Positions 12,183-50,662 of a stretch of 51,243 nt of DNA are shown here, one piece after another (the stretch's first letter is position 1; each line of letters begins with the position of its first letter). A model generated the notes under the pieces. That model was not told the DNA's origin. It searched no databases and was given only the letters and a program-made list of their open reading frames with translations. Source of the DNA: Gammaproteobacteria bacterium (GTDB taxonomy: Bacteria > Pseudomonadota > Gammaproteobacteria > Beggiatoales > Beggiatoaceae); the NCBI GenBank assembly GCA_003645255.1, contig QNES01000008.1:1-51243 (forward strand), in the 5' to 3' direction. A program made the translations under genes and the position numbers.

Positions 12183-13389
12183 CAATTTTCTGATTCTCAT
12201 CTTGATGAATCTAGGCAACGTTTTTGCCTATTTATTCCAAATGGTGATTGGGCGAGTATTATCACCGGATGATTTTGGTGCCTTTAACGCCCTCAACTCA
12301 CTAGCAATTGTTATCTCTGCACCGATGGCAGTCTTGCCACTCGTATTTTCCCGCTATACCGTTCAGCTATCTGCGGATGGACTAGGGCAAGTCAAAACCT
12401 TACTGATAGATAGTTTTCGGATACTGTCATTGCTGGCAGTGGGTATTTTTGCTCTCGGACTCATTGCCCTGCCCTTGTTGAAAGACTACCTGCATTTGCA
12501 AGAGTCAACGCCGATAATCATTATGTTAACCCAATTACTGTTATCCTTATTTGTTCCCGTTTTATTAGGCACTCTTCAGGGATTACAGCGTTTTGTTTTT
12601 TTCGGTATCGGATCAAGTGGCACTGCATTTTTACGATTAATTGGTGCAATACTCTTTGTCTATGTGTTGGGATGGGGCGTTAATGGTGGATTATTGGCAA
12701 GCGTTTTTGCAACCTTTGGAGCGATGCTGATCTGCATAATGGGTTTAAAAGATATTTGGCAACAAGAACGTCAACTATTGCCGGTGGGACTTTACCGCGA
12801 AATGGGAAAATATGCTTTACCGGTACTGATATTCACCTCAATGATGATGGTATTAGGTAATCTGGATATCGTTTTAGTGAGACATTATTGCTCCAGAGAA
12901 GAAGCTGGACTTTATGCCACCGCCGCTATTTTGGGTAGAATTGCTCTTTTTCTGCCCGGTGTTTTATTAGTTGTACTCTTTCCAGAAGCAGCAAAAGCCA
13001 AAGATGAAAACAATGAAGATCAACGCATTTTATGGTTAAGTATAGCAATGACTGCCCTATTAGGAGGCGGATTTGCACTGATTTGTTATCTTTGGCCGGT
13101 AGAACTAACTGTTTTACTCTTCGGCACGAAATATCAAGCCGCCGCCCCCCTGTTACAAACCATTAGTTTAGCAATGGCCTTACTAGCAGTGGCAAATGTT
13201 ATATTTGTCTATAGCCTAGCCCATCATAAATTTATATTTTTATTCCCCCTTGTAGGAGGAGTTATAACAATGCTAAGTTTAGTTTTTGTTTACCATGACA
13301 GTGCCATGACGATTGCTAATATATTATTAGGTGCTATCATGGGGATTTTGGTAATCACATTGGGGCTAAAAACAGTTAAAATATTATAA
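12163..13389 (+). CDS. Oligosaccharide flippase family protein (Wzx/MATE-like)
   Basis: The 408-residue protein has about 12 membrane segments and the N-terminal signature of polysaccharide flippases: NVFAYLFQMVIGRVLSPDDFG, here IGRVLSPDDFGAFNALNS at residues about 26-43. These proteins move undecaprenyl-linked oligosaccharides across the inner membrane. It could serve the glycan genes upstream, though a terminator and a toxin-antitoxin pair separate them. Some PelG/exopolysaccharide-type exporters look alike, so the exact subfamily is open. Confidence 0.78.
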   Translation: MKRFLRNNFLILILMNLGNVFAYLFQMVIGRVLSPDDFGAFNALNSLAIVISAPMAVLPLVFSRYTVQLSADGLGQVKTLLIDSFRILSLLAVGIFALGLIALPLLKDYLHLQESTPIIIMLTQLLLSLFVPVLLGTLQGLQRFVFFGIGSSGTAFLRLIGAILFVYVLGWGVNGGLLASVFATFGAMLICIMGLKDIWQQERQLLPVGLYREMGKYALPVLIFTSMMMVLGNLDIVLVRHYCSREEAGLYATAAILGRIALFLPGVLLVVLFPEAAKAKDENNEDQRILWLSIAMTALLGGGFALICYLWPVELTVLLFGTKYQAAAPLLQTISLAMALLAVANVIFVYSLAHHKFIFLFPLVGGVITMLSLVFVYHDSAMTIANILLGAIMGILVITLGLKTVKIL

Positions 13390-13512
13390 GTAGGTACACA
13401 TAAATATTTTAATATTTTTGTTTTCTGCTAAAGCACTGATTATTAACGGATTTCTAAAAATAGAAAATGTTAAAAGACTTTTTAGTAGCTACTTATCTAT
13501 ATTAAAAACAAG

Positions 13513-13959
13513 ATGCAAAAACGTGCCGCTAATCGTAGACAAAGGAGAGCAAGACTGTGGTATAGAAAGAGGCGGTTTAATAACCGCTCATCAAGCAAGC
13601 GTGCTTTCAGGTTGCCTGTCTCAATCAAAGCTATAGTTTTTCAGATAATTAATTTTACCAGGGCGAACACTTATGTTCGCCCCTACGTCAAGTATTTTAT
13701 TGTAGGGGCAGACCACCGCGAATGCCCTTTAGGAAATTATTTATCTGAACATCTATAATGTAGAAGAGGTTATTAGAACGATAAACCAATTACCTTTACC
13801 GATTAAAGCGGTTGTTATAGAAGATGTGCAGATTGATATTGCGAAACTGAATGAGACCAAGTTAAACGGTAAATATTATCAACAATCAAAGCGCAGCTCA
13901 GAAAATCTCAGGCTGGCGACTTTGATTCGTGATACTTCTACTATTGTGGAGTTTAAACT
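13513..13959 (+). pseudogene. iscB-like (RRXRR / OMEGA nuclease) gene remnant, interrupted
   Basis: Two segments belong together. From 13513 the frame reads QKRAANRRQRRARLWYRKRR then FNNR, an arginine-rich block like the bridge-helix region of IscB proteins (RR-RR-RYR--RF-NR). From 13757, in another frame, it reads NVEEVIRTINQLPLPIKAVV, IEDVQIDIAKLN, then LNGKYYQQSKRS and LATLIRD, resembling the IscB stretch that ends in a conserved G-x-x-YQQG before the HNH insert. The N-terminus and the HNH domain are missing. The gap between the segments is a short TA-flanked element; exact removal rejoins the frames. Assignment is by pattern memory, not a search. Confidence 0.6.
13632..13757. mobile_element. 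MITE-like element (copy 1) inserted in the iscB remnant
   Basis: The element runs from TAG at 13634 to CTA at 13755 and is flanked by TA on both sides (13632-13633, 13756-13757). Its ends are imperfect inverted repeats: TAGTTTTTCAGATAATTAA against TAGATGTTCAGATAAATAA. A TA target duplication is typical of Tc1/mariner (IS630)-type transposition. Inside are two other repeats: GGGCGAACAC-TTAT-GTTCGCCC and GGGGCAGACCACCGCG, the latter also near 24230. It encodes no protein. Related copies lie at 35253, 42978 and 50729. Confidence 0.72.
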
Positions 13960-13990
13960 GATAACTAATAACTAATAACTAATAACTAAT
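13957..13990. repeat. TAACTGA/TAACTAA heptamer array before ubiE
   Basis: About five tandem heptamers of the type TAACT(A/G)A run straight into the ATG of ubiE, so the usual ribosome-binding position is occupied by the repeat. Arrays of this kind are reported from marine Beggiatoaceae. Confidence 0.85.
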
Positions 13991-14729
13991 GACTGAAAAC
14001 ACCACCCATTTTGGTTTTACCCAAGTGCCATTGAAAGAAAAAGTCCACCACGTTGCCCAAGTATTTGATTCTGTGGCAAGCCGCTATGATTTAATGAATG
14101 ATCTAATGTCTTGTGGTATTCATCGTTTGTGGAAACGCTTTACGATTGAATTATCGGGCATACAGCGTGGACAAAAAGTCCTTGATTTAGCTGGGGGAAC
14201 CGGCGATTTAGCCACTAAGTTTGCTAAATTAGTGGGAGAGCAAGGGCAAGTCGTTTTAGCTGATATTAATGCGGCTATGTTAGAAGTTGGGCGTGATCGC
14301 TTGCTTAATAAAGGTATATTGGTTGACTATGCACAAGTCAATGCAGAATCCTTGCCCTTTGCCGATAATTATTTTGATCTCATTACGATAGCTTTTGGGC
14401 TGCGTAATGTGACGGATAAGGAGGCTGCTCTTCGTTCAATGTTACGGGTTTTAAAACCGGGCGGACGTGCTTTAATATTGGAATTTTCAGAATTAAAAAT
14501 CCGCCCTTTAAAACCGTTGTATGAACTGTATTCTTTTAAAGTATTACCCCGATTAGGTCAATGGATAACTAAAGATGCTGAAAGTTATCGCTATTTAGCG
14601 GAATCCATTCGTATGCACCCCAACCAAGACACTTTACTTGAAATGATGCAAAAGACGGGTTTTGATCGCTGTGATTATCATAATTTAAGTGGTGGTATTG
14701 TTGCGGTGCATAGAGGCTATAAATATTGA
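13989..14729 (+). CDS. ubiE: Ubiquinone/menaquinone C-methyltransferase UbiE
   Basis: The 246-residue protein is nearly the length of E. coli UbiE (251). [20 protein letters not shown] is the family N-terminal signature, [12 protein letters not shown] (64-75) binds SAM, and [13 protein letters not shown] is the UbiE motif. It transfers a methyl group to the benzoquinol ring in ubiquinone synthesis. The following RDD protein gene, ubiJ and ubiB complete a ubi locus, as in many Gammaproteobacteria. No Shine-Dalgarno is visible because a heptamer array abuts the start codon. Confidence 0.95.
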
Positions 14730-25949: not shown

Positions 25950-25956
25950 GCCTTTT

Positions 25957-26030
25957 GCTAGGGGTACCATTGTTGGCTGAGAACACACCCTTTGAACCTG
26001 AACCAGCCTATACTGGCGTAGGGATGCATA
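25957..26030 (+). ncRNA. TPP riboswitch (THI element) upstream of thiC
   Basis: The conserved THI-box strings are all present in order: AGGGGTACC, GGCTGAGA, ACACCCTTTGAACCTGAACC and TACTGGCGTAGGGA. The element binds thiamine pyrophosphate and should switch off thiC. Downstream, GCAC-TAA-GTGC followed by eight T (26049-26067) may be the terminator stem of the expression platform, though it is short; hiding of the AAAAAGG ribosome site is the alternative. Confidence 0.95.
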
Positions 26031-26055
26031 TATCTACTTATTTCTTTTGCACTAA

Positions 26056-27969
<1,914 letters not shown>

Positions 27970-46730: not shown

Positions 46731-48134
46731 CTATTTCAACTGTCTCACTATTTTAGCAACTGTGATGCGCGTTTTCACACCACTTTGACCAAATTCATTG
46801 TTGTTAATGAATATCGCATATTCATCATTCAACAGTGCGAGTCCTTCAATATTAGAATCTAAATCTGACATTTCACGGCGAGAATCAAATACCAATTTCT
46901 TGTTCAATGGTATAATACCTTGAACGGCTAAATTTGACTGAGTTTCTAAAGATAAAGATGATGAATTCGGCGCTTCAATATCCCAATTACTGCCTAAAAT
47001 ATTAGTGGCTGTGTCTAATGATACCCGGTAGAGTTTGGTATGCCGAATGACGCGCTCCAAAATAATTAGCTCATCAGTGTCTAAAGCGACCATTTCACTG
47101 ACTTTGACATCGCTTTGTTGGTTTGTGTTATCGGCAGTAAAAGTATTCGGTTCTTCCAGAGTATAGATATATTCACCCACTACGCTTTCAAAATCGCCCT
47201 GTTGGAGACTTAGCTTAAATAAGCGAACATAACGAGAATAAGAAAATGCGCTTTCAGAAGGATTTGCCAATGGGCTTTCCATGATAAAATACAAAAACTG
47301 CTCATCGGGACTGATAGCCAGTGATTCAATACCCCGATTCAGATGACGTTTTTTCAAAATAGCGGGTAAAAATCCACTCACTCGATAATTAGCATCCACT
47401 AAACTGTTTTCTACGCCAATTGGCACAATGCGTTCAAGGATGCGTCCATTAGCCGCAACATGAACCAAACTGGGGGCATATTCTTCTGCTAACCAGAAAG
47501 TGCCATTAGACAATTTGACTATTGCCTTTGGATTAATACCGGCTGGATCAAAATCCAGTGAATTGCCCTGATTATCATAGCCGTTTTCCGTTGCCATCCC
47601 GATTGAAGGATTCGGCAATCCAGAAATGGGATTATCATCGCGATCCTTGATGGTAATGGTTTGCTTGACTTCATAACCCACCTTTGCACCGATAGCGCCA
47701 CCGGTGTCAATATTAAACTTGTAAATGGTGGGCGTGAAATCGGTTGAGGCAAAGATAGTGCCATTATTATCAATATCATCAATTACCCGAACCCCTGCAC
47801 CGGTCACACTACCAAAACAGAAATTTTCGACACCTACGATGTCTGTGCTGTCATCACAAGGTATATTAGGTCCCCTATCAGTGATGGTATAAAATTCATC
47901 AACTGGATCATCTTTAAAATGAAAAGCCCCACTCCCCATGTTTATATCAAAGCTCAGGGTTTTGCCCCCCTTAAAGGATACCGGTGTCATTGGCTCCTCA
48001 ACATCAATCACCTCTTCACTGAGCGTAATGCTGGAGACAAGGTTACTGATCACATCTTCATCATCATCACTGCATCCAGTTAAGTTGACAATAATTGATG
48101 AAATAAGCAAAAAATAGAAAAAGCGTAAGTTCAT
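46731..48134 (-). CDS. Lipoprotein of the phytase-esterase-like family
   Basis: The 467-residue precursor has a lipoprotein signal with lipobox LTGC (Cys21) followed by Asp residues. YTITDRGPNIPCDD, then TFWLAEEYAPSLVHV, NRGIESLAISPDEQFLYFIM, and SNIEGLALLNDEYAIFINNN are hallmarks of the esterase-like activity of phytase family, a six-bladed beta-propeller. The substrate may be organic phosphate esters; it is not certain. An IDDIDNNGT loop may bind calcium. Confidence 0.85.
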   Translation of the reverse strand: MNLRFFYFLLISSIIVNLTGCSDDDEDVISNLVSSITLSEEVIDVEEPMTPVSFKGGKTLSFDINMGSGAFHFKDDPVDEFYTITDRGPNIPCDDSTDIVGVENFCFGSVTGAGVRVIDDIDNNGTIFASTDFTPTIYKFNIDTGGAIGAKVGYEVKQTITIKDRDDNPISGLPNPSIGMATENGYDNQGNSLDFDPAGINPKAIVKLSNGTFWLAEEYAPSLVHVAANGRILERIVPIGVENSLVDANYRVSGFLPAILKKRHLNRGIESLAISPDEQFLYFIMESPLANPSESAFSYSRYVRLFKLSLQQGDFESVVGEYIYTLEEPNTFTADNTNQQSDVKVSEMVALDTDELIILERVIRHTKLYRVSLDTATNILGSNWDIEAPNSSSLSLETQSNLAVQGIIPLNKKLVFDSRREMSDLDSNIEGLALLNDEYAIFINNNEFGQSGVKTRITVAKIVRQLK

Positions 48135-48181
48135 AAATGGTTAGCTCCTTATTTAAATTTAAATTAATTCTAATTTGTTAC

Positions 48182-48323
48182 ATGAACCTATCCCACTATT
48201 CAAAAATGCGGAACCCTTCATTCCAATCGTTTGGTTTTTAAGCAAAAAACGAGGGTAAAGAAATCAGATTTTTTCAAAAATCGGATTTCTGAGCTGCAAA
48301 AATGAATAGTGGGATAGGTTCAT
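48182..48323. mobile_element. 142-base element with 21-base perfect terminal inverted repeats
   Basis: The first 21 bases (48182-48202, ATGAACCTATCCCACTATTC..) are exactly inverted at the end (48303-48323). Inside is another hairpin, AAATCAGATTTTTTC-AAAAATCGGATTT, related to 24187-24218. It codes for nothing and looks like a non-autonomous transposon. Confidence 0.8.
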
Positions 48324-48537
48324 TTAAGAAAATCAACGAGTAGGGTGGATAAAGTTTTTAGCCTTAGAATAAAGACTAAGGTATGAGATTTTAAGAACTG
48401 AAAAAATTTTCAAGCCAAACCTGGCAGGTTTAGTTTTCGAGGTATTATTTAATTTTCATTCCTAATGTAATCATTTCGCCTAAGCCGATTCATTTATGTT
48501 AACTAAAACTAACAAACATTAACAATAGCACCCATAA

Positions 48538-48716
48538 GGGTGGGGGAATCTCCCAAAGATCTTTGATATGATTCAAAGATCGCAGATAACAACTCAAGTT
48601 GACTTGGTTCTCGCCAATTTTAAGGATTGCCAGTTTCAGGTTTTACCAGTCTCACATTTGAAGTAAGAACCAAATACCTGCCACTTAAACACTAGCTAAG
48701 TTGACTCTAGCTGTAC
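48538..48716 (+). ncRNA. Candidate structured RNA, HEARO/omega-RNA-like
   Basis: The stretch folds into successive elements: CACCC-ATAA-GGGTG, then GGG-GAATCT-CCC, then GATCTTTGA/TCAAAGATC, then CAACT-CA-AGTTG, then a long-range pair TTGGTTCT (48604-48611) with AGAACCAA (48666-48673) enclosing smaller stems, and lastly AGCTA/TAGCT around AGTTGACTC. The sequence is less AT-rich than its flanks. The order and wording call to mind the HEARO RNAs found upstream of iscB, but no iscB follows; only the relic at 13.5 kb is in the window. Strand is inferred. Confidence 0.4.
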
Positions 48717-48766
48717 GACATTATACTCAAAAAATAGAATTTGTCAAGAAAAGATTTTTGTTAACT

Positions 48767-48807
48767 TTCGAGGTTTCTGTTTTTCTCCGAAAAACAGAAA
48801 CCTCGAA
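48767..48807. repeat. Perfect 19-base inverted repeat
   Basis: TTCGAGGTTTCTGTTTTTC is exactly inverted after a 3-base loop (TCC). With A-rich and T-rich sides it could terminate transcription in either direction. Confidence 0.85.
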
Positions 48808-49050
48808 TCGATAAAGATGAGACTTATTTTTGTTAAATTTTATGAGTTTTTGTTAATAAAAAATTTACCTTCCCAAAAAATGTATTATACTCTGCATTGC
48901 TATAAATTGCATTTTTTTACTTTCACTTGATTTAGATTTAAGGAAATCGTTTTTTAAAGAAAAACTAAAACATCGAATTCTTGCATATCATTTTCATCCA
49001 TTTTGAACACGTTCAGTATATAATGATATAGGCTTTGTTTTGGAACAAGC

Positions 49051-49095
49051 TTTCGAGGTTCAAGTTTTTTTATCGAAAAAAATTGAACCTCGAAA
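49051..49095. repeat. Long hairpin upstream of nuoM
   Basis: TTTCGAGGTTCAA plus seven T pairs with its inverse, one mismatch apart. It shares the TTTCGAGGTT end with the hairpin at 48767 and lies 47 bases before the nuoM start. Confidence 0.8.
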
Positions 49096-49106
49096 AAGTA
49101 ATTTTT

Positions 49107-49139
49107 ACTGATAACTGATAACTGATAACTGATAACTGA
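49107..49139. repeat. TAACTGA heptamer array before nuoM
   Basis: Near-perfect TAACTGA units end two bases before the nuoM ATG, so there is no ordinary Shine-Dalgarno. This is the same arrangement as at ubiE. Confidence 0.88.
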
Positions 49140-49141
49140 AT

Positions 49142-50662
49142 ATGGCTAATTTATCTTTATTAAGTGTACTCATTTGGCTACCTATTTTAGGTGGTATTTG
49201 GGTGCTCATTATTGGCGACAAACAAGCTTCTATTGTTCGTCCTATTGCATTAGTTGTGTCAATGCTGACATTTATTTTGTCGTTAATACTATATCTTGGG
49301 TTTGACACGACCACTGCTGATATGCAATTCACCGAAAAACTGTCTTGGATACCTGCCTTTGGTATTAATTACCATTTGGGGGTAGATGGCATTTCTATGC
49401 CTTTGATTATATTGACCACTTTCACTATGGTGCTTGTGATTTTATCCGGGTGGGAAGTAATCAAATATAAGCCTGCCCAATATCTAGGTGCCTTTCTATT
49501 TATGGAAGGTTTGATGGTTGGCGTGTTTTCGGCTTTGGATGCCATGTTATTTTATGTGTTGTGGGAAGCGATGCTCATACCTATGTTTCTTATTATTGGT
49601 ATTTGGGGTGGTCCCCGGCGCGTTTATGCGACTATTAAGTTTTTCCTTTATACCTTTTTTGGCTCAGTATTAATGCTTGTGTCATTGTTGTACCTCTATT
49701 TTCAAGCTAATAGCTTTGGCATTTTAGATTTCCACACTTTGCCAATTTCCTTAGAGGCGCAAAAATGGATTTTCTTAGCCTTCCTAGTCGCCTTTGCGGT
49801 CAAAGTACCTATGTGGCCGGTACATACCTGGCTACCCGATGCCCATGTTGAAGCACCCACTGGTGGCTCCGTGATTTTAGCCGCTATCATGTTGAAGATG
49901 GGTGGCTATGGTTTCTTACGCTTTAGCTTACCTATTACGCCGGATGCGAGTCGTGAATTAGATTGGCTCATTATTGCCCTATCGCTCATTGCTATTGTGT
50001 ATATTGCTTTTGTGGCTTTGGTGCAGCAAGACATGAAAAAACTGATTGCCTATTCATCTATTTCCCACATGGGATTTGCGACTTTAGGCTTTTTCATTGG
50101 GTTTATGATTTATGATAATACGGGTTCAATGGATGGGGGGGTGATGGCTATTGAGGGCGGTATGGTACAAATGGTATCGCATGGTTTTATTTCGGGTGCC
50201 CTATTCATAAGTGTCGGTGTACTATATGACCGCTTACACAGTCGTAATATTGCTGATTACGGCGGTGTGGCTAATGTCATGCCCCATTTTGCCTTCTTTA
50301 TGATGCTATTTGCGATGGCAAACGCAGGTTTACCAGGCACTTCTGGCTTTGTCGGCGAGTTTTTAGTCATACTTTCCTCATTTAAGGCCAATTTCTGGAT
50401 AGCCTTCGCCGCCGCTAGTATTATGATTTTTGGAGCTGCTTATACCTTATGGATGGTTAAACGGGTAATATACGGTGCCGTCACTAAAGATAGTGTTGCT
50501 GGCTTAAAAGACATCGGTAGGCGCGAAACCTTTATTTTGAGTGTCCTAGCGATTGCGGTCTTATTATTTGGTATTTTTCCCGCACCGCTATTAGAAGTGA
50601 TGGAAGTCACTGTACAACATTTGTCAGAACACATTTTACAAACGAAAGTGCCGTTAATGTAA
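49142..50662 (+). CDS. nuoM: NADH-quinone oxidoreductase subunit M
   Basis: The 506-residue protein has about 14 membrane helices. WEAMLIPMFLIIGIWGG carries the key glutamate of proton channels, and KVPMWPVHTWLPDAHVEAPT with ILAAIMLKMGGYG is the antiporter-like signature; HMGFATLGFF follows. NuoM is one of the proton-pumping subunits of complex I. nuoL and nuoN, which normally flank it, are not here: it is bounded by repeat DNA on both sides. The start is the ATG straight after the heptamer array. Confidence 0.97.
   Translation: MANLSLLSVLIWLPILGGIWVLIIGDKQASIVRPIALVVSMLTFILSLILYLGFDTTTADMQFTEKLSWIPAFGINYHLGVDGISMPLIILTTFTMVLVILSGWEVIKYKPAQYLGAFLFMEGLMVGVFSALDAMLFYVLWEAMLIPMFLIIGIWGGPRRVYATIKFFLYTFFGSVLMLVSLLYLYFQANSFGILDFHTLPISLEAQKWIFLAFLVAFAVKVPMWPVHTWLPDAHVEAPTGGSVILAAIMLKMGGYGFLRFSLPITPDASRELDWLIIALSLIAIVYIAFVALVQQDMKKLIAYSSISHMGFATLGFFIGFMIYDNTGSMDGGVMAIEGGMVQMVSHGFISGALFISVGVLYDRLHSRNIADYGGVANVMPHFAFFMMLFAMANAGLPGTSGFVGEFLVILSSFKANFWIAFAAASIMIFGAAYTLWMVKRVIYGAVTKDSVAGLKDIGRRETFILSVLAIAVLLFGIFPAPLLEVMEVTVQHLSEHILQTKVPLM

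Follow-up and report, generated by a model that had tools for sequence, protein, structure and literature searches.

The intergenic DNA upstream of nuoM in the window, by which we mean the whole stretch of 51,243 nucleotides analysed here, carries an element that we interpret, with a probability of about 80%, as a non-autonomous IS607 derivative whose stand-alone guide RNA (reRNA) programs TnpB in trans. The element has aligned ends, a promoter match, a covarying structure, a 3′ module and pseudoknot shared with tnpB, and multiple copies with different guides. A preliminary description had proposed a HEARO-like structured RNA on the plus strand at 48538-48716; helices do exist there, and strand, extent and family are other than first read.

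The element and its ends

The element lies between a phytase-like gene (46731-48134, minus strand) and nuoM (49142-50662, plus strand), in DNA that had been called gene-free and indeed holds no open reading frame of at least 100 amino acids between 48134 and 49142. Its ends were set by aligning 15 copies with unrelated flanks: one edge of the alignment reads ...ATCGG, the other GG followed by the left end, and the sequences beyond are unrelated. The window copy has GG at both junctions (48485-48486 and 48868-48869), and its left end (GGTAAATT...) is about 10 nt shorter than in most relatives (GGTTTATGCATAGTAAAT...). The resulting extent, 48485-48869, exceeds that of the RNA first proposed. The parts are listed in Table 1.

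Table 1. Positions in the window of the element and of its predicted parts.
Feature	Position	Strand	Remark
Whole element, probable non-autonomous IS607 derivative	48485..48869	-	385 bp, no protein gene, one nested palindrome
Promoter TTGACA-16 nt-TATAAT	48720..48747	-	12/12 match
Predicted stand-alone reRNA scaffold	48485..48713	-	start inferred from promoter; fold z = -2.70; P1-P5 covariation
5′ module, helices P1-P3	48589..48680	-	
P1	48676-48680/48637-48641	-	
P2, family register	48662-48667/48647-48652	-	
P3	48626-48630/48589-48593 and 48613-48619/48597-48603	-	
P4, nine perfect pairs	48558..48581	-	equivalent helix before UUUGG-P5 at tnpB 3′ ends
P5 with pseudoknot loop GATTC (48546-48550)	48543..48554	-	
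Hairpin P6 (CACCC/GGGTG)	48529..48542	-	
Hairpin P7 (TGTTAA/TTAACA), transposon right end	48497..48524	-	outside covariation count
Pseudoknot 3′ strand GAATC, adjoining terminal GG (48485-48486)	48487..48491	-	
Last 16 codons and stop of IS607 tnpB, SLGDSPTLMGAIVNVC	48509..48559	-	translation identical to C202 tnpB
Predicted guide (transposon flank) CTTAGGCGAAATGATTACAT	48465..48484	-	by analogy with IS607 reRNA (PMC10711439)
Nested TTCGAGG...CCTCGAA palindrome	48767..48807	-	unrelated repeat within element

Promoter and strand

Promoter-like sites number four in 48100-49200 against 4.5 expected, so that their number is uninformative and only a perfect match is informative. One such match exists: TTGACA-16-TATAAT on the minus strand (48747-48720) is a perfect sigma-70 promoter and the only 12/12 match in this interval. 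A promoter-like site was also found upstream of 42 of 61 copies, compared with 133 of 1220 mononucleotide-shuffled upstream stretches, and these sites form two clusters upstream of the modelled RNA, at 61-62 nt in 14 copies and at 39-42 nt in 20. Three points place the conserved RNA on the minus strand, opposite to the first reading: the sole 12/12 promoter match, the direction in which its ancestral tnpB 3′ end reads, and the covariation, which was counted on that strand.

The stability of single folds gives modest evidence when taken alone, and the decisive evidence is comparative. On the plus strand, the fold of 48538-48716 had z = -1.73 (10 of 200 shuffles as good) and that of 48520-48740 z = -2.47 (4 of 200), and on the minus strand 48485-48713 reached z = -2.70 (1 of 200). 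The perfect nine-pair stem reported earlier was recovered (48558-48566 with 48573-48581) and corresponds to P4, one of six helices supported by covariation. The eight-pair long-range stem is likewise present in the plus-strand fold of 48538-48716. A candidate long-range GGUUC/GAACC pairing, which lies outside the counted helices, keeps its letters in nine of the 11 aligned copies, its GAACC side being missing from L086 and L087.

Covariation and pseudoknot

Covarying copies were found in other Beggiatoaceae, as the preliminary description had suggested should be looked for. Alignment A1, made of 11 stand-alone copies and evaluated on the minus strand for six helices with 31 pairs, showed 95.0% standard pairs and two-sided changes in 11 pairs. 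Its covariation score was 0.339 compared with 0.163 after shuffling (0 of 500 shuffles as high), and at most 0.056 when the helices were slid; further pair types were in no excess over shuffles (446/500). With P5 set one column off, the same alignment gave 91.8%, nine pairs and a score of 0.298. The larger alignment A2 comprises 62 copies that were found with the model R1 and fitted to it, and hence leans towards the structure; it showed two-sided changes in 24 of the 31 pairs and a score of 0.289 compared with 0.127 (0/500). Both R1 and A2 carry P5 one column off, where 44.9% are paired. Read in the family register, P2 of the window copy has lost three of its six pairs, and an alternative six-pair hairpin (48663-48668/48650-48655) forms.

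In the IS607 reRNA a pseudoknot joins guide-adjacent nucleotides with an apical loop and is needed for activity (PMC10711439). In the present RNA the loop of P5 is complementary to the nucleotides before the terminal GG, as GATTC/GAATC in the window copy. Among 45 stand-alone copies scored (59 were given), 43 form all five pairs, with GATTC/GAATC in 36, GATAC/GTATC in six and GATGC/GTATC in one, and the other two form four and three pairs. At tnpB loci five pairs form in all 11 scored (12 given), in three combinations (8, 2 and one GATAA/TTATC); the twelfth locus, L142, has by eye a fourth combination, GATCA/TGATC. Another pseudoknot candidate, CGAU before P4 with AUCG, was dropped, as CGAU is not kept in L081, L082, L086 and L087.

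The 3′ scaffold is common to the window RNA and to tnpB transcripts, as judged from 97% identity over 78 bp, from R1 and from the folds of tnpB tails. In each of the 12 tnpB loci given, the best R1 match fell at the 3′ end of tnpB, each match being weak (E 0.0076 to 0.87), and single folds of ten tnpB tails mostly showed P4-P5-P6 and the right-end hairpin; in L148 the P4-P5-P6 module comes after the tnpB match. The RNAalifold consensus of the ten tails was poor (-3.0 kcal/mol), owing to a variable distance between reRNA and stop codon, but contained both the pseudoknot and the hairpin that precedes P4. For P1-P3 there is no established counterpart in tnpB transcripts.

The parent transposon

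Neither tnpA nor tnpB is present in the element, the latter being left only as its last 16 codons, and since no tnpB lies directly upstream we regard the RNA as a variant and not as an ordinary IS607 TnpB reRNA. A piece of contig C202 in the window's genome consists of a tnpB 3′ end and the transposon right end, and it is this DNA that is 97% identical to the window over 78 bp. The right end of the element is the same as in IS607 elements with tnpA and tnpB. In two related loci, L085 and L089, both genes are in full-length frames, and Pfam assigned Resolvase and MerR to TnpA and Cas12f1-like_TNB and HTH_OrfB_IS605 to TnpB of related loci, which, judged by domain content, is the IS607 make-up. 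The zinc-ribbon cysteines around YTSKTVSWTG appear by eye to be mostly lost in the TnpB of L089 and L085. Left ends of elements with tnpA and tnpB align clearly with those of stand-alone copies from GG on in L080 and L085 (two of four testable loci) and more weakly in L089; no such end was found by alignment in the decayed L013, and L090 is truncated at a contig end. With both ends matching an autonomous element, the left one at the level of the family, and with no transposase, the element has the properties of a MITE-like IS607 derivative.

IS607 elements recombine at GG dinucleotides (PMC10711439). When the flanks of ten copies were joined at one GG, ends could be located in four, whose open frames spanned 400, 221, 54 and 49 codons, and we consider only one of these convincing, L074, whose joined 1.2 kb is an open frame from end to end, 400 codons in all. 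For the window copy no empty site was found: its joined flanks were set against the sequence upstream of nuoM from three relatives, and nothing aligned beyond repeats, because this region is not conserved in congeners. The cognate tnpB found in the window's genome (C202) has one stop inside its match, and the tnpA match of the same element is decayed, with six stops.

These observations bear on the main competing explanation, that of an inert mini-transposon moved by TnpA in trans, whose RNA features are tnpB 3′ remnants serving no RNA function. It draws on the broken cognate tnpB, on copies with truncations or damaged helices (no readable 3′ end or guide in 13 of 62, three broken P2 pairs in the window copy) and on the fact that bacterial MITEs and PATEs are common, among them a PATE-like remnant of IS605 that retains 58 nt of tnpB (PMC7290912). 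It does not lead one to expect compensatory two-sided changes in 24 of 31 pairs, a covarying pseudoknot together with a conserved promoter, or a 5′ module that is absent from tnpB, and we consider it unlikely.

Two predicted types of guide RNA

In two loci, L190 and L114, the promoter and P1-P3 are those of the family and the 3′ module is a different one (GGGGAGCUUACCCC / GGGAGCUUACCCC ... GUAAGAG). The same 3′ module follows a divergent tnpB on contig C1 of the window's genome, whose open frame encodes 444 amino acids and whose 3′ module is unlike that of the window RNA; by eye it has a pseudoknot of its own, CUUAC/GUAAG. Since L190 and L114 join the family P1-P3 to the C1-type 3′ module, the data suggest a modular RNA with one 5′ part and two TnpB-specific 3′ parts. 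L116 has the same P1-P3 module and looks incomplete.

Copies, distribution and guides

The genome of the window contains near-identical partial copies on C98, C156 and C135 (97-98%), all cut by contig ends, diverged copies on C16 and C118, and the 78-bp piece on C202. The copy on C118 (L015, G000:C118) is truncated, with promoter, P1 and P2 intact and unrelated sequence thereafter. In another genome, L083 (G019:C61) is a stand-alone variant with an enlarged 5′ part and the same P4-P5-P6 and right end. At E≤0.01, R1 matched in 12 of the 42 family genomes, with 59 matches in G019, 14 in G051, 10 in G018, four each in G046 and G000, three in G001, two in G024, and one each in G002, G045, G049, G052 and G054. 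A tnpB match at E≤1e-40, not in every case of the cognate lineage, was found in eight of the 12 RNA-bearing genomes compared with five of the 30 others (Fisher p = 0.003). At this threshold no tnpB was found in the RNA-bearing G002, G045, G046 and G051, of which G045 is 63% and G046 84% complete.

A search outside the family with an 18-letter pattern returned 38 genome_contigs stretches and one viral stretch. R1 was run on 20 of these 39. Six matches reached E<0.001, every one of them in a Thiomargarita/Parabeggiatoa record; in the 14 other records of the 20 it gave only L209, at E = 0.21. The remaining 19 stretches are, by title, Thiomargarita/Parabeggiatoa records.

A readable 3′ end with at least 20 nt of flank was available for 49 of 62 copies, and no two of these 49 flanks share the same first 12 nt; the other 13 have no readable 3′ end or guide, partly through contig ends. 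The predicted scaffold ends at the transposon right end with GG, and by analogy with IS607 reRNAs the flank would be used as the guide. The predicted guide of the window copy matches its own genome at its own site with no mismatch and at one 3-mismatch site that has no GG before it; the reversed control pattern had no match in that genome.

The diversity of these flanks also bears on a reading in which the RNA was co-opted, for example as a trans-acting regulator through a TnpB-like (TldR-like) repressor or as a host small RNA, the guide end being irrelevant. Copies in genomes with no detected tnpB, and a P1-P3 module common to two reRNA types, would fit such a role. Guides that differ in 49 of 49 readable copies and derive from the flank, as in a mobile element, and the retention of a TnpB-type pseudoknot make it improbable in our view.

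Rfam families

Scanned at the gathering score, the window gave a single Rfam match, a TPP riboswitch (25950-26041, 61.6 bits). RAGATH-18, which is said to be included in Rfam 15, was therefore not matched at this score in the window, and eight related loci gave no Rfam match at the same score. A permissive scan of 48140-49141 on both strands (E≤10) gave 36 matches, all below cut-off and mostly TTCGAGG hairpins outside the reRNA.

The covariance search for HEARO (RF02033) called for in the preliminary description returned no HEARO match on either strand of 48140-49141 at E≤10. Stand-alone IscB guide RNAs have reportedly been described, in one paper and from other organisms, and such RNAs are like the present one in being guide RNAs apart from the nuclease gene, but they belong to an unrelated RNA family with an unrelated nuclease. 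No iscB lies beside the RNA, whose neighbours are the two genes named above; the 3′ half, pseudoknot and transposon end are common to IS607-type tnpB genes, not iscB; and the sense strand is the opposite one. A HEARO or IscB omega RNA, as first proposed, is thus ruled out for practical purposes by the scan, by the sequences shared with tnpB and by the TnpB-type pseudoknot. What stands of the original proposal is a guide-RNA-like RNA of the OMEGA kind, stand-alone and detached from its protein gene; the HEARO family and the plus strand do not. The sole HEARO match in the window's genome (L016, G000:C241:4506-4636) is partial, lies at a contig end and scores 54.9 bits, below the cut-off of 83; it may be an IscB omega RNA at a separate site of that genome. 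For the "relic at 13.5 kb" mentioned in the preliminary description, an Rfam scan of 13000-14100 gave nothing at E≤1.

Proposed mechanism and its implications

According to the explanation we favour, a trans-programming IS607 derivative, an IS607-family transposon would have lost tnpA and nearly all of tnpB, keeping both ends as well as a complete, rebuilt reRNA (omega RNA) scaffold with its own minus-strand promoter. Transcription would start near 48713, and the RNA would fold into P1-P7 and the pseudoknot and run past the terminal GG, so that host sequence from 48484 downward would serve as guide. A TnpB encoded elsewhere would bind this RNA in trans and, guided by the flank, cut the matching empty site beside GG; repair would then restore the mini-element, which would be copied back or retained, and TnpA would move it in trans. 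The window copy may be idle now, because the cognate tnpB found in its own genome is broken; alternatively, the assembly, which consists of 313 contigs and breaks at these repeats, may lack intact copies. The earlier suggestion of a fossil does not simply hold for the family, in which structure and promoter are kept across copies, even though the cognate tnpB found in this genome is broken.

More broadly, we give even odds to the idea that mini-transposons equipped with a promoter and a TnpB guide RNA of their own together make up a dispersed repertoire of many guides that acts in trans. Each copy would program a shared TnpB against its own empty site, and P1-P3 would be combined with the 3′ scaffold of one or other of two TnpB lineages (GAUUC/GAAUC and CUUAC/GUAAG types). 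As each copy would direct the shared nuclease to its own empty site, protein-less elements would gain RNA-guided retention, which suggests that MITEs are able to use it. The guide RNA of TnpB, the protein from which Cas12 descends, normally belongs to the tnpB gene itself. If the idea is true, the guide RNA would here have turned into a mobile unit in its own right, driven by its own promoter and multiplying in the absence of the nuclease, with dozens of distinct guides in one genome, and would represent a natural step from a cis-acting transposon guide to a trans-acting guide set such as CRISPR. Separate promoter-driven guide scaffolds, of two types for two TnpB lineages, could also provide compact tools.

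Comparison with known systems

The closest known counterpart is the reRNA of the IS607 element ISXfa1 (PMC10711439), which likewise ends at the transposon GG, takes the flank as its guide and pairs guide-adjacent nucleotides with an apical loop in a pseudoknot, and whose parents are likewise IS607 elements with TnpA, TnpB and GG crossover. The window element differs in having no tnpA or tnpB, a promoter of its own and the extra 5′ module P1-P3, and its scaffold is longer (about 229 nt compared with about 150 nt). The reRNA derived from RAGATH-18 (PMC11061315) is also an IS607 TnpB guide RNA; 64% of RAGATH-18 RNAs lie beside tnpB, hence some do not. It differs in that none of the eight loci here had an Rfam match at the gathering score, and the relevant passages of that paper make no mention of stand-alone use.

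IS200/IS605 PATEs and MITEs (PMC7290912, PMC4853749) resemble the element in being protein-less, in keeping transposon ends, in some cases with a tnpB 3′ remnant, and in being moved in trans; MITEs have been reported in Ca. Thiomargarita nelsonii, and IS605-derived ones predicted (PMC4853749). The window element differs from them in its IS607 ends (GG in place of IS605 palindromes) and in its promoter and conserved guide RNA fold, and the relevant parts of both papers draw no link between MITEs and TnpB guide RNAs. In the open-licence PMC literature we found no stand-alone or MITE-borne TnpB guide RNA. IS607 reRNAs and protein-less IS derivatives are thus known separately, and the novelty would lie in a promoter-driven guide RNA that, as far as its sequence can tell, constitutes a nuclease-less mini-transposon.

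Other features of the window

The TTCGAGG...CCTCGAA palindrome nested in the element occurs again at 49050-49096 and belongs to a family common in the window's genome, which accounts for most of the 73 genome matches to the query 48440-48900; it is also nested in the reRNA element copies L014 and L084 and inside the C202 tnpB. Beside the element, an inverted repeat at 48183-48325, whose ends measure about 21 nt (ATGAACCTATCCCACTATTCA), looks MITE-like by eye. The TPP riboswitch lies upstream of an open reading frame at 26056-27969. Directly before nuoM, tandem TAACTGA heptamers occupy 49108-49138, a heptamer cited as frequent in marine Beggiatoaceae (PMC4853749).
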